NCBI RefSeq assembly: GCF_014303735.1
Contig: NZ_CP060296.1
Location: 2,553,501 to 2,617,500, forward strand
Direction: 5' to 3'
Source of the DNA: Variovorax sp. PAMC28562
GTDB lineage: Bacteria; Pseudomonadota; Gammaproteobacteria; Burkholderiales; Burkholderiaceae_C
DNA length: 64,000 nt
This document shows, one piece after another, positions 3,558-8,391 of this stretch. The notes under the pieces are model-generated. The model saw only the letters and a list, made by a program, of their open reading frames with translations. It had not been told where the DNA came from and did not search any database. The first letter of the stretch is position 1. Each line of letters starts with the position of its first letter. A program made the translations under genes and the position numbers.

Positions 3558-3648
3558 GCGCGGCCACTGAACGCTGCCGGTGTGGAAAGCGCGCAGTGCG
3601 TGAGCCGGCAGCAGGTTCATGCCGCCGGGCGATACGCCGCCCATGGCC

Positions 3649-3921
3649 ATGGACGACACCGATCGCAAACTGATTTCGCTGTTGCGCAAGGATGCGCGCA
3701 TGACTGCCGCGGCGCTGGCTGCGAAGCTCGGCGTCTCGCGCGGCACCATTGCTAACCGCTTGCGCAAGCTCGAAGACGAGCAGGTAATCGTCGGCTATTC
3801 AGTGCGGCTCAGGCCCGCCGCCGAGCCCGCCACCATCAAGGCCTGGATGAGTGTGGTGGTCGAAGGTAACCAGACCCGCGCCGTCATCGCCGCGCTGCTC
3901 GGCGAGCCCGCCGTCGCATCT
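3649..3921 (+). pseudogene. Truncated Lrp/AsnC-family regulator (DNA-binding part only)
   Basis: An intact AsnC-type winged helix-turn-helix (MDDTDRKLISLLRKDARMTA, then LAAKLGVSRGTIANRLRKLE) plus the first strand and helix of the RAM effector domain. Homology ends abruptly near residue 91. Family members are about 150 residues, with the rest of RAM forming the dimer and ligand site; that part is absent. The frame stays open for another 396 bases and runs into the small gene at 4072, giving one 223-codon ORF from this ATG (233 from the upstream ATG at 3619). The joined stretch at about 3922-4071 looks like former intergenic DNA. Probably a deletion product; whether a chimera is made is unknown. 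Confidence 0.6.
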
Positions 3922-4071
3922 TCATATGCAACGCTCTTCGTTGTAGGGCCAGGCGTACCCGGCCGTAGGACCGAGGCGGCTTTGCACCGCACTTCCCGCA
4001 GATGTGAACTTTGCACTCCCGCGAATGTCGTCCGCCGTGCCCAATGGCTTCGAACCAACTGGAGCTTGAAC

Positions 4072-4317
4072 ATGAGCAAGACGCTCGATCTGATTGTTGA
4101 AGAGACGATTCCCGGACATTTTTTCTGGACGCTGGTGCGGCGCGCCCCTGCCAAAGAGACTCCCTTTGTCGTCGACTTTGCCATGGGCCCGTTGCCTAGC
4201 AAGAAGGCCGCCATCGCTGCCGGCAATGCCGCGATGCAAAGAGCCAGCGCGGCCAGCGGAGCCGGTCAGTCCGCATGGAACGGAAACCACGCGGAGACTG
4301 TTTCTGCGAATCTTTAG
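4072..4317 (+). CDS. Small hypothetical protein
   Basis: An 81-residue ORF starting MSKTLDLIVEETIPGHFFWT. It is mostly soluble, with a Gly/Ala/Ser-rich second half, no signal peptide and no domain I recognise. The ATG is preceded by TGGAGCTTGAAC, a plausible ribosome binding site, which supports independent translation even though the frame is open upstream into the broken Lrp gene. Its stop overlaps the stop of the convergent DUF2894 gene by three to four bases. The function is unknown. Confidence 0.5.
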   Translation: MSKTLDLIVEETIPGHFFWTLVRRAPAKETPFVVDFAMGPLPSKKAAIAAGNAAMQRASAASGAGQSAWNGNHAETVSANL

Positions 4318-5039
4318 ATGCCGCCTTTGGACTCGCGAGAGCTTTTGCGCGCAGGCTTCTTCTGAACCGCGTCGCGCTGCGCACTCGCACTCGACACCGC
4401 AGCAACGGCATTCGCATCGTCGAGCCACAACAATGCGTCGACATGCGACATGAAGTGGCTGAGGTAGCCCGGCGAAAGATCGCGCATCGACTTGAGCGCC
4501 TGGTGCACCAAATGGTGCGAATTAAGGGGACCTGGATTGTCTGGCACCGTCGCGTGAGACTGGGACAAATGGCGTTCGGCGCTGAGCTTCGACCATGTGC
4601 TTCTGAAGTACTTGAGCGTGCGCGGCATCGAGCCCTCGATGGCGCCGTCGTCACCGGTCACCTTCGGTGCGAGTCGACCGGCCAGTTCTGCAAGCGCGCT
4701 GCGAACCGCGGAACCTGAACCCGGGGCACCCGGCAGGCCGGGCAGTTCGCCTGCAACATCGCTTGTTGCCTGCGCCGCCTCTCTGGCAAATCTCGCTCTT
4801 TCGACGTCCTCGCCATAAGCAGACAACAGTTGCGCCAGCCTGTCGTCGAGGATGCGGCGCGCTGCCCCTTGCTGCAGCAAAGCTCGCCGCGCAAGAACCT
4901 CGATGAAGCCGAAGCGCACGGGGTCAATACGGTGATCGCCACGCGCGCGCAACGCGTCGAGCGTGGCGCCGTGGTCCACGCCAGCATCGCTCGTGACGAC
5001 GCCCTTACTCACGGACCTTTGCGGTGCCAGTGGCTGCAT
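4314..5039 (-). CDS. DUF2894 family protein
   Basis: A 241-residue protein matching my recollection of the DUF2894 family, found in Burkholderiales beside DUF3348, DUF802 and OmpA genes. It has a conserved core (LAQLLSAYGEDVERAR), a motif LKYFRSTWSKLSAERHLSQS around residues 165-185, and a conserved PGYLSHFMSHVDALLWLDDA near the end, closing in a basic tail (KKPARKSSRESKGG). The ATG at 5039 lies inside the preceding OmpA-like gene, an overlap of 35 bases that implies coupled translation. No signal peptide or membrane segment is seen. The role is unknown; by position it is the cytoplasmic fourth member of the motor-like operon. Confidence 0.75.
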   Translation of the reverse strand: MQPLAPQRSVSKGVVTSDAGVDHGATLDALRARGDHRIDPVRFGFIEVLARRALLQQGAARRILDDRLAQLLSAYGEDVERARFAREAAQATSDVAGELPGLPGAPGSGSAVRSALAELAGRLAPKVTGDDGAIEGSMPRTLKYFRSTWSKLSAERHLSQSHATVPDNPGPLNSHHLVHQALKSMRDLSPGYLSHFMSHVDALLWLDDANAVAAVSSASAQRDAVQKKPARKSSRESKGGI

Positions 5040-5679
5040 TGTTGACACCAGCAGGCCGCGGTGTCGGCGCCATCTCGACGCGCCGATTTTTCGAGCGTCC
5101 ATCCGCATCCGCGTTCGATGCCACGGCCTGCTCTGCACCGAACGCCGCGGCAAAGACCGACGCCGCCGGAAGGCCTTCTTCAATCAGCGTCCGCGTCACC
5201 GTCAAGGCGCGTTGCGCCGACAGCTCCCAGTTGTCGGCGAATTGCCGATTGCCCCCGCGCACCTGCCGATCGTCGGTGAAGCCGCTCACCATCAGGATCT
5301 CGTCGCGTGACTGCAGGTAGGCGGCGAGCGGCGTGGTCAGGCTCTTCAACAGTTGCCGGCCCTCGGGTTGCAGCTCGGCCGAGTTGAGCGCGAACAGCAC
5401 ACTGCCGCTGATGCCGATACGCCCGTTGTTGAGCGTCACGCGGCCCGCAGCCAAGGGCCCGGCCAGCGCCTTTTCCAAGGTCTCGCGGCGCTGCGACTCC
5501 GCTTGCCGTTGCTTGACCTCGGCTTCGAGCTTGGTCGCGAGTTCCAGTTGCATGCCGAGCACGCACACCAGGATGAGCACGAAGGCGCCGAGCAGTCCCG
5601 ACATCAGGTCGCCGAAGACAGCCCAGATCGGGACGCTCGATTCGAGCCCGCCGTCGCTGCCTTCGGAAAGTTCGTTCAT
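5005..5679 (-). CDS. MotB/ZorB-like OmpA-domain membrane protein
   Basis: A 224-residue protein with the architecture of MotB/ZorB stators: a short cytoplasmic N-terminus, one membrane helix (about residues 18-40, reading PIWAVFGDLMSGLLGAFVLI), a coiled-coil linker, then an OmpA-like peptidoglycan-binding domain (ALNSAELQPEG ... SGFTDDRQ ... NWELSAQRA ... RSKNRRVEM). An aspartate (D24) sits at the start of the helix where MotB has its proton-carrying Asp. The ATG at 5679 overlaps the DUF802 stop (TGATG); a GTG at 5682 is also possible. It is expected to pair with the DUF802 protein as an ion-driven inner-membrane complex. That function is inferred from architecture, not shown. Confidence 0.8.
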   Translation of the reverse strand: MNELSEGSDGGLESSVPIWAVFGDLMSGLLGAFVLILVCVLGMQLELATKLEAEVKQRQAESQRRETLEKALAGPLAAGRVTLNNGRIGISGSVLFALNSAELQPEGRQLLKSLTTPLAAYLQSRDEILMVSGFTDDRQVRGGNRQFADNWELSAQRALTVTRTLIEEGLPAASVFAAAFGAEQAVASNADADGRSKNRRVEMAPTPRPAGVNNAATGTAKVRE

Positions 5680-7604
5680 CACGCTTCGCTGCCCGCGAGC
5701 GAGCGCTGATCTGCGAGCCGCTGCAGGTCTTCGACGATCTGCCTTTGCGACAGCATGCTGAGGTCGATGACCTCCCTGGCCTGCGCCACGTAATAGGCAA
5801 GTTGCTCATCGCTGCGCACCATCGATTTTCCGAGCGCGCCTTCGATGCGTTGCAGTTGGGCACCCAGCTTGTCGTTCGACTGGCTGAAGAGCTGCACGGC
5901 GTGACCGAAGGCTTCGCCCAGGCTCGCCACTTCGACCGCGCTGCCGGTGAGCCGCGCACTCACGTCGGCCATCTTTTCTGCTTCGGCGTCGACCTTGTCG
6001 GTGAACTGAGTGCCGGCGCGTGCCAGCAAATCCGCCGATGTCGCAACCAGCGCATCGATGGCCGCGCGTTGTTCGGTGGAGGCGTGGTTGACGCTGTCGA
6101 GCACGGTCGAGAGCGTGCCGAGGATGCGGCTGCGCTCTTCGAGCAGTGCGTTGTCGCCGACCATGCTGGCCGACAGCTTCTGCCGCAGTTCGGCGATGAC
6201 CTCGGCCGCTGCACGTGGCGCTTCGGAGGCTGTCTGCACGAGTTGCGCGACCTCCGCGATGGTGTTCTTCGCATGTGCTTCCGTCTGGGCAGACAGGTCG
6301 CGAGCGGTCTGCTCCAGCCTCTCGACGATCTCTCGCTGCAGGCCGGCGGCTTGCGCGCCCGCCTGCTGCCATTCATGCTTCAGCGAGGCCGCGATCGCTG
6401 CGAGCGCCTCGGTCCAGGAAGCGAGGCGCTGTTGATCTTGCGAGGCAACCTTGTGCTGCAAATCGCCGTGCGCTTCGCCCAGCGAATGCACCAATGATGT
6501 CGCGCGTTGCTCGAATGTTTCTGCGAAGCGATCGAGCGACGTGCCCAGGTCTTCGGCCAACGATTCGCTCGTACGCCGGTGTTCGGCCAGCGCGGTGTTC
6601 CAGAGATTGCCCATGTTCGCCGTGCTGGCCTCGAAGCGGGTCGACAGCCCATCGAGTTGCTGCTGCGCTGCCTGCGCGACATGGGTGTGCAGAGCGGCCG
6701 TCTCTTTGGCGATGCTGGCCATCGTGGCCTCGACCACAGGTTGAATCGTCGCACCAGCGATGCGGGCGCTTTCGGTCAGGCTTTCTTTCAGCGATTCGCC
6801 GACGGCCGACGCCAAGCTCGCGTAAGCGGACTCGGCCTGCCCATGAAAACTGTCTTGCCCAGCGACGAGCTTCTCGTTCAGCGCCTGACTCTGCTTTTCC
6901 ATCGCGGCCATCATGGATTGCAGACGGTCGGCCAGTTCGGGCATGACCTCGGCCTGGCGTTGAAGCAGCTTGAACGATTCTTCGCGCCGGTGCGCACTTG
7001 AAAAGACACGCAAGGTCGTCGCGATCTTGGTGTCGAGCAACTGCGCAACCTGCAGCCGGTCGCGTCGGCACAGAGCGGAAACCAGGCCCAGCATCGCCGA
7101 TGCCGCGACACCCGCGAGCGATGTTCCGAAAGCCAGGCCCAGTCCCTTGACCGGCGCAGCCAGCGACGAGCGGATCGACAGCAGGTCCGATGCGCTTTCC
7201 AGCGCGGTGCCGGTGCCGTTCAGCGTGACGACCATGCCGAGGAAAGTGCCGAGCATGCCGAGCAGCACCAACAGGCCCGCGAGGTAGGGCGTCAGCGTCG
7301 GGCCAGGCAGGCCAACGCGTTCGCCTTCGATGCGCAGACGCACCGAGTTCTGCAGCGAAGCGGGAAGCTGACCGAGCCAGGCGGCAAGGCCAGCCGGTGC
7401 TTCGGAGGTGCCCGTCACCGCGTGTGCCAGCGTGGACGTCGCCTGATCGAAGCGGTACAGCTCCAGCCCGCCCATCACATAGAACCCGCCGATGATCAGC
7501 GTCATCACCAGCGCCAGCGGGCTCACGCCGATGTAGCCGATGCCGACCCAGCAGATGGCTGCCAAGCCGAGGAAAAACGCTGTGAAGTGAAGTGATCTGC
7601 TCAT
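5679..7604 (-). CDS. DUF802 protein: MotA/ExbB-like membrane subunit with long coiled-coil tail
   Basis: A 641-residue protein. Two helices lie near residues 5-50 (LHFTAFFLGLAAICWVGIGY and PLALVMTLIIGGFYVMGGLE). Two more at about 105-185 carry a MotA/ExbB-type GTFLG motif (LGMLGTFLGMVVTLNGTG) and a small-residue-rich helix (GLAFGTSLAGVAASAMLGL). The remaining 450 residues are Ala/Glu/Gln-rich coiled coil containing the DUF802 repeats. Four helices followed by a long intracellular tail is the plan of ZorA. It starts 9 bases after the DUF3348 gene and overlaps the MotB-like gene. The reading as a proton- or sodium-driven stator is inference. Confidence 0.8.
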   Translation of the reverse strand: MSRSLHFTAFFLGLAAICWVGIGYIGVSPLALVMTLIIGGFYVMGGLELYRFDQATSTLAHAVTGTSEAPAGLAAWLGQLPASLQNSVRLRIEGERVGLPGPTLTPYLAGLLVLLGMLGTFLGMVVTLNGTGTALESASDLLSIRSSLAAPVKGLGLAFGTSLAGVAASAMLGLVSALCRRDRLQVAQLLDTKIATTLRVFSSAHRREESFKLLQRQAEVMPELADRLQSMMAAMEKQSQALNEKLVAGQDSFHGQAESAYASLASAVGESLKESLTESARIAGATIQPVVEATMASIAKETAALHTHVAQAAQQQLDGLSTRFEASTANMGNLWNTALAEHRRTSESLAEDLGTSLDRFAETFEQRATSLVHSLGEAHGDLQHKVASQDQQRLASWTEALAAIAASLKHEWQQAGAQAAGLQREIVERLEQTARDLSAQTEAHAKNTIAEVAQLVQTASEAPRAAAEVIAELRQKLSASMVGDNALLEERSRILGTLSTVLDSVNHASTEQRAAIDALVATSADLLARAGTQFTDKVDAEAEKMADVSARLTGSAVEVASLGEAFGHAVQLFSQSNDKLGAQLQRIEGALGKSMVRSDEQLAYYVAQAREVIDLSMLSQRQIVEDLQRLADQRSLAGSEA

Positions 7605-7613
7605 GGCATCCCG

Positions 7614-8279
7614 TTATGTCTCTCGAAGGGCTTCGAGCAGCCCTTCGACTGGTTGCAATCGAATCTCCAGCTCGGCGAGCAACACGCTTTGCATGTCCTT
7701 GACGAATGCGTCTCGCCATGCTTCAGGCTCGCCATGCGCCAGGCGCTTGAAATACTTCTCGAGCAAGCCCGGCACCGTCGCCAGCAAACGTTGCTCATGC
7801 ACGGCCAGCGCCCGCTCCATCACCGCATCCAGCGCGGCGAGCTGCACCATGGACGGTGATTTGCTCGCCAATGCCACGCGCACACGCCTGCGCATGCCGG
7901 CGATATTCGTCTCCATGGCCTGTTGTCGGGCAATGTAGCGCCTGCGATAAGGGGCGAAGTCGGTGGTCGTGCCCGTTGCCGCGTTGCGGGAGGGCGCGAG
8001 GTCTCCGTTGATCGCGGTGACCAGCACGGCCCGCACGCGTACGCATTCGGCTTCTTCGGTGCTCGATGCCGCGAGGGCATTGCGCAGGCGCAACGGTGCA
8101 TTCGGCACCTCGCCGTTCAAAACCGAAGAGAGCGTGATCGCGTCGGTCCAGCCGAGCCACTGACTCAATCGGTCTGTGAAAGACCGTTTGGAGTCGGCGA
8201 CGTCGATGTCCGTCAGTCGGGCGAGGAGGCGAACGAGTATCGACCCGTTGAAGCCTGTGCGCCGGGGCACTTGCACCAT
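7614..8279 (-). CDS. DUF3348 family protein
   Basis: A 221-residue soluble protein matching the DUF3348 family as I recall it. It opens with a conserved region on a WLGWTDAITLS motif, has a long basic helix (YRRRYIARQQAMETNIAGMR), and ends in a helical segment (VPGLLEKYFKRL, then KDMQSVLLAELEIRLQPVEG). No signal peptide or membrane helix is apparent. It is the first gene of the four-gene unit with DUF802, a MotB/OmpA-like protein and DUF2894. The function is unknown; the constant neighbourhood suggests it regulates or caps the membrane complex. Confidence 0.75.
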   Translation of the reverse strand: MVQVPRRTGFNGSILVRLLARLTDIDVADSKRSFTDRLSQWLGWTDAITLSSVLNGEVPNAPLRLRNALAASSTEEAECVRVRAVLVTAINGDLAPSRNAATGTTTDFAPYRRRYIARQQAMETNIAGMRRRVRVALASKSPSMVQLAALDAVMERALAVHEQRLLATVPGLLEKYFKRLAHGEPEAWRDAFVKDMQSVLLAELEIRLQPVEGLLEALRET

Positions 8280-8391
8280 ACCGTCCAGAGCGAAAAACCA
8301 CGCAGTCTACACGCGGCAAACACGGGGAAAGGCGACGGAAAAGGTGTAGGGAAACCGAGACCTCAGGCCGTCGGCACCGTGCCTTGGCCCA

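Follow-up and report, generated by a model that had tools for sequence, protein, structure and literature searches.

Organization of the locus

The window (the whole 64,000-nucleotide stretch of the Variovorax sp. PAMC28562 genome analyzed here) carries on its minus strand, between positions 8279 and 4314, four co-directional open reading frames in series, as identified by ORF calling. The first encodes a 221-residue DUF3348 protein (7614..8279, minus strand; Pfam PF11828, E 3.1e-75; PADLOC model PDLC00658, 7.4e-84). It is followed by zorA3 (5679..7604, minus strand; 641 aa), whose product matches DUF802 (PF05650, 5.9e-18), the PADLOC ZorA3 model and PDB chain 8vvn_C, and by zorB3 (5005..5679, minus strand), which reads from ATG 5679, with GTG 5682 as a possible alternative, to a stop at 5005 and matches PF00691 (1.4e-17) and the ZorB3 model. 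The last gene encodes a DUF2894 protein (4314..5012, minus strand; 232 aa from GTG 5012; PF11445, 2e-52; PDLC00652, 4.3e-68). All four families named in a first-pass annotation of this DNA (DUF3348, DUF802, OmpA and DUF2894) are thus confirmed by Pfam. Its description of a four-gene overlapping operon holds for the number and position of the genes, but not for every junction, since the DUF3348 and ZorA genes are separated by a 9 nt gap.

The ZorA and ZorB genes have 1 nt in common if ZorB starts at ATG 5679, giving a protein of 224 residues (225 from GTG 5682). Started at GTG 5012, the DUF2894 gene overlaps that of ZorB by 8 nt; an overlap of exactly this length recurs in 27 of 48 regions from the same genus, making GTG 5012 the most likely start, while the protein-database record uses a later one (221 aa). 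One relative, locus L148 of genome G037, has a 164 bp gap between the ZorA and ZorB genes, against 1 bp in its close relatives G031 and G047.

ZorA consists of a MotA/ExbB-like membrane part (residues ~1-210) and a coiled-coil tail (~210-641) that contains the DUF802 match (residues 320-372). The tail had been described as a 450-residue coiled coil; its nature stands, and its size is closer to 430 residues. A simple hydropathy scan shows one peak at the N terminus, a double one at 97-126 and a further one at 157-175, so that four membrane helices are plausible. The protein also carries a GTFLG-type channel motif, which we take to resemble that of ExbBD/TolQR. ZorB combines a MotB-like helix bearing D24 with an OmpA peptidoglycan-binding domain (PF00691).

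The two partner proteins are less readily placed. DUF3348 is modeled by AlphaFold2 as an all-helical bundle (pLDDT 84.8, pTM 0.81), and the DUF2894 prediction is of poor quality. Neither protein has a Pfam match to a nuclease or other catalytic family, and no significant structure match to a fold relative was found for either.

Six neighboring genes between 1849 and 12121 encode a CoxG protein, an XdhC protein, an AsnC-type regulator, a member of the dihydroxy-acid dehydratase family, an epimerase and a GntR regulator. None of the neighbors tested is ZorC, ZorD or ZorE, as a type I or II Zorya system would have it, and none is a flagellar gene, as would be expected beside a MotAB flagellar stator; the ZorC family PF15611 has no match anywhere in this genome. 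The AsnC-type regulator (3619-4317, plus strand), whose last four bases overlap the DUF2894 stop, matches only helix-turn-helix families and looks truncated and fused to an unrelated C-terminus.

Assignment to Zorya type III

A profile scan against PADLOC-DB 2.0.0 assigns all four proteins to Zorya type III. The type III models score far above those of type I (1071 bits for ZorA3 against 38 for ZorA1, and 377 bits for ZorB3 against 67 for ZorB1) and above types I and II generally, and zorA and zorB are flanked by DUF3348 and DUF2894 genes, the arrangement that marks type III. Moreover, a profile of ZorA residues 1-230 matches a single PDB chain, 8vvn_C (E 4e-6), from the Shewanella ANA-3 type I ZorAB entry 8VVN, whereas the ZorB profile retrieves MotB and OmpA-type proteins for the most part (44 chains in all, with 8vvn_B at 5.4e-7). 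These PDB profile searches with ZorA and ZorB found no solved type III structure.

The first-pass annotation knew of no assigned function for the unit. Zorya type III was in fact named in 2021 by Payne et al., the accessible text of which reports that the Stenotrophomonas nitritireducens type III operon, cloned into E. coli, lowered phage plaquing (PMC8565338). According to the same text, DUF3348 is ZorF and DUF2894 is ZorG. The PADLOC-DB 2.0.0 models (PDLC00652-PDLC00658) label DUF3348 as ZorG and DUF2894 as ZorF, the reverse of PMC8565338, exposing a clash of names between the founding paper and the database. The accessible part of PMC11953036 records Zorya Type III in a Variovorax strain, and the literature matches listed, some available as excerpts, do not include a phage test either of this locus or of any Variovorax type III system.

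The residues expected of an ion motor are in place. The channel aspartate of ZorB is invariant in an alignment of 122 sequences (122/122, some genomes being present twice, under a genome handle and as a named locus), so that the D24 proposed earlier, numbered correctly from ATG 5679 (D25 from GTG 5682), passes the conservation test set for it beforehand. In ZorA, conservation is 0.99 or above at T120, T127, T161, S162 and S169 in the same set; aligned to 8vvn_C, these positions would line the channel. The membrane aspartate of ZorB and the Ser/Thr ring of ZorA common to all Zorya types are thus both represented, and conservation is high over the OmpA part of ZorB (29 aligned sequences). Together with the ZorA3 and ZorB3 model matches and the 8vvn_C match, these residues bear out, at the level of sequence, the suggested kinship with ion-driven motors.

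Distribution across genomes

DUF3348 occurs in 59 of 61 genomes of the same genus, the window's own included, and in 51 of the 52 of good quality. Among the same 61 genomes, rpoB was found in 55 (52/52 good), PglZ/BREX in five (3/52) and type I ZorC in one (1/52), PglZ and ZorC, both less common than such families as restriction systems, being the two defence controls. In the genus sample DUF3348 is missing from a single good genome (G046; 99% complete, 330 contigs), through either real loss or an assembly gap. In a second genus the gene is present in 77 of 81 genomes (74/77 good), and in a third genus in 7 of 18 (6/11 good). Across the family it is found in 87 of 299 genomes, and across the class in 8 of 369. 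DUF3348 was matched in 27 of 72,556 plasmid records; 25 of these were listed, all of them replicons of at least 588,872 bases. A search of 50,697 phage records gave no match, and no relative was found in viral contigs.

The order of the four genes is identical in all 48 same-genus regions (the window's included) and in all 40 second-genus regions. Of 80 named loci, 74 gave matches to all four in this order, although DUF3348 is cut in one of them, and contig ends break the remaining six; the grouping is therefore not due to chance. The 48 regions were drawn from the 59 positive genomes (11 were fragmented, split or near contig ends and were omitted), and the 40 from the 77 positives of the second genus.

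A cassette with changing location

By a simple gene caller, the 48 same-genus regions fall into about 19 flank contexts, eight of them in 2-13 genomes and 11 in single genomes. The location is steadier in the second genus, with 40 regions in five contexts, the largest of 22. Also in the second genus, DUF2894 is short (149-175 aa as called) in loci L240-L251, whose flank context also holds operons of a different kind, which suggests replacement at one site.

An empty site is visible in relatives. For one context, whose site was compared in 13 genomes, the operon lies between two convergent genes in six (4.82-5.10 kb between the stops), while the same two genes are only 2-21 bp apart in four genomes and separated by 579-1075 bp of other DNA in three. 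All seven genomes with the operon-free site carry DUF3348 elsewhere. Insertion at tRNA genes was considered and rejected, a tRNA being present in one of the 48 regions.

Contexts 1 to 6 each lie within one rpoB clade, and the largest context is split. Trees were built for 46 genomes, two of the 48 having no full rpoB. The operon and rpoB trees have 15 of 43 splits in common, and of 26 operon splits with good support, 12 are at odds with rpoB splits that are likewise well supported; this conflict may be partly rpoB's own error, as a single gene. Operon and rpoB distances are nevertheless correlated (Spearman 0.39, a value reached in none of 999 permutations). Two genomes seemed to have an rpoB-rpoC fusion, which was dismissed as a product of masked stretches.

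To characterize the surroundings, 149 of 152 flank ORFs were scanned, from one genome for each of the 19 contexts and with the three longest excluded. Ten PADLOC matches were obtained at 1e-10 (six to mad3, and one each to SspA, DndA, mad2 and mad8), and a defence-island setting was rejected. The 25 commonest of 163 Pfam families in the flanks are mostly transport, LysR and metabolic families, while AAA_21 ('putative AbiEii toxin') matched three members. Near-universality in two genera, mostly metabolic and transport neighbors and few defence-model matches make the unit unusual for a defence system. A system classified as accessory immunity comes close to being core in two genera, yet changes place as a bare four-gene cassette.

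A conserved leader

A conserved leader travels with the operon. In the window it is the element TGTAGACTGCGTGGTTTTTCG (8291..8311, minus strand), 11 nt upstream of the first start codon, which has one match in the window and none in 100 shuffles. Its consensus upstream of DUF3348 is TGTA(G/A)A(C/A)T with a run of T after it, and it is kept across contexts whose surroundings differ. A 19-base core pattern, allowing up to two mismatches, matches the 4.69 Mb genome once, at this site. Furthermore, a less strict pattern, GTARAMT-N3..8-TTTT, precedes the operon in 44 of the 48 same-genus regions, all 40 second-genus regions and 55 of 73 named loci, which partly overlap the 48, against a shuffle expectation of 0.00. 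The four same-genus regions without the pattern have near variants; of the 18 named loci without it, the eight listed include near variants and some clearly different leaders.

The leader may be the core of the unit's own promoter, and a scan for a sigma-70 promoter at this position found nothing. A terminator-like stem is also predicted over the leader in the window. Inspected by eye across contexts, the left arm of the stem varies with no matching changes while the right arm is constant, so a sequence element is preferred over an RNA hairpin.

Tail modules of type III ZorA

ZorA3 proteins range from 601 to 1098 residues among 122 sequences (some genomes occurring under two handles). In the accessible text of PMC11890865, component size is described as well conserved within each Zorya family, a statement made of the solved types; for type III ZorA such constancy does not hold. 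The tail has a hydrophobic period of 3.64 residues by spectral analysis (at least 3.63 in 113 of 122 sequences, and below 3.57 in none), a value that fits a coiled coil.

Many of the long tails contain tandem modules, with unit lengths of 51, 62, 73, 87, 98, 109, 116 and 131 residues at a repeat identity of at least 0.60. All eight lengths lie near whole multiples of 3.64, deviating by 0.059 turn on average (p 1e-5 when the period is set to 3.64; p 0.0006 when it is fitted). A multiple-of filter dropped units of 102 and 204 residues (identity 0.61-0.77), both of which also fit, at 28.02 and 56.04 turns. A wider set of repeats (127 of 162 proteins, 16 unit lengths) holds weak repeats whose phase is favored by the search itself, and we rely on the stricter set.

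The 87-residue unit is the commonest (24 proteins), and ZorA3 lengths form a ladder in steps of 87: 698, 785, 872, 959 and 1046. Units of this length are 76% identical within proteins and 59% between proteins (best pairs), so module expansion or homogenization is probably recurrent. We infer that the tail would work as one continuous coiled coil in which in-phase changes of length survive. The steps thus suggest a single working rod, of which natural length variants are available for probing reach. No module of the ZorA tail in the window exceeds the null, whose maximum is 64 against 56 observed.

The operon itself is of a known kind, and nothing distinguishing was found in the window's copy. 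What seems to be new concerns the family: the phased tail modules, near-universality with changing location, and the conserved leader. Neither tail modules nor genus-level fixation is reported among the literature matches listed, which does not establish their absence from print.

Proposed mode of action and alternative readings

Across 46 genomes, mean pairwise identity is 0.62 for DUF3348 and 0.58 for DUF2894, whereas ZorB reaches 0.81 and the membrane part of ZorA 0.78; faster divergence of the two partners than of the motor would fit parts that meet variable targets. The divergences of the four genes remain correlated once rpoB distance is taken into account (partial rank correlation 0.29-0.75; for each pair, none of 199 permutations reached the observed value), and DUF3348 and DUF2894 have the highest correlation of all pairs (0.80, and 0.75 after rpoB correction).

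The locus is best read as an ordinary type III Zorya system, probably a peptidoglycan-anchored ion motor acting through ZorF and ZorG. By analogy with the solved types, five ZorA3 and two ZorB3 subunits would form an ion motor in the inner membrane, with the OmpA domains of ZorB gripping peptidoglycan and the five ZorA tails bundling into a rigid cytoplasmic rod. A phage injecting its genome might disturb the wall and so open the motor, whereupon a flow of ions, of whichever kind, past D24 of ZorB and the Ser/Thr ring of ZorA would turn or rearrange the rod. The rod could then recruit or activate DUF3348 and DUF2894, and the phage would be stopped; the tail would in this way hand work on to the two partners, as was first suggested from the sequence. 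The conserved gene order, the channel residues, the coiled-coil periodicity and the correlated divergence count for this reading; the near-universality in two genera, the mostly metabolic and transport neighbors, the few defence-model matches nearby and the lack of a catalytic-family or fold match in DUF3348 and DUF2894 count against it.

The distribution raises the alternative that the unit is a core envelope motor with a standing job, such as wall surveillance, division or upkeep in the manner of TolQR/ExbBD, the phage protection seen with a plasmid-borne copy in E. coli being a by-product. Frequencies of 59/61 and 77/81, against 5/61 for PglZ/BREX and 1/61 for type I ZorC, would suit such a role, as would the lack of phage-record matches and the rarity in plasmid records, those listed being very large replicons. 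However, the unit is patchy beyond the two genera (87/299 in the family, 8/369 in the class, 7/18 in the third genus), changes place, and has a history that differs between subclades and conflicts with rpoB at 12 of 26 strong splits; moreover, a homologue does protect from phage (PMC8565338, accessible text). We regard the core-motor explanation as unlikely. A bolder synthesis, to which we give somewhat more room while still doubting it, is that type III Zorya is a genus-fixed wall-surveillance motor, as opposed to an accessory set of defence genes, with a phase-locked ZorA shaft whose reach is tuned by whole-turn modules. The output of DUF3348 and DUF2894, which are helical and do not look like nucleases, would then be mechanical or regulatory and, in contrast to types I and II, would not involve cutting DNA.

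Two further readings touch the assignment and the state of this copy. That an ordinary MotAB, ExbBD or TolQR paralogue has been misfiled as Zorya is scarcely credible: ZorB does score against many MotB/OmpA models and structures, but the type III models score far higher, the only PDB match of the ZorA profile is a Zorya ZorA, and the long tail comes with two constant partner genes. Loss of function in this particular genome is only slightly less improbable; the 4.69 Mb genome is among the smaller ones of the genus sample and its ZorA tail among the shorter (641 in a range of 601-1098 aa), yet the four frames are open, the key residues intact and the leader present. The type III Zorya motor remains the reading that we prefer.

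Comparison with known systems

The closest known system is Zorya type III as described in the accessible text of PMC8565338, with the same four families and zorAB flanked by DUF3348 and DUF2894. For types I and II, the accessible text of Mariano et al. 2025 (PMC11890865) describes a ZorA5B2 (5:2) ion motor with a rod, in which peptidoglycan binding, the rod and ion flow are required. The present unit is alike in its ZorA-ZorB motor, aspartate, Ser/Thr ring, peptidoglycan-binding domain and rod-like tail, but has no ZorC, ZorD or ZorE among the neighbors tested and no identified nuclease, and type III ZorA varies in size. With MotAB/PomAB it has in common a MotB-like helix joined to an OmpA domain and a MotA-like channel, and it differs from these stators in its long cytoplasmic tail, its type III partners and the absence of flagellar genes among the neighbors tested. 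It also falls outside the ExbBD/TolQR class, in that its B subunit bears an OmpA domain (PF00691) and its A subunit a tail of ~430 residues.
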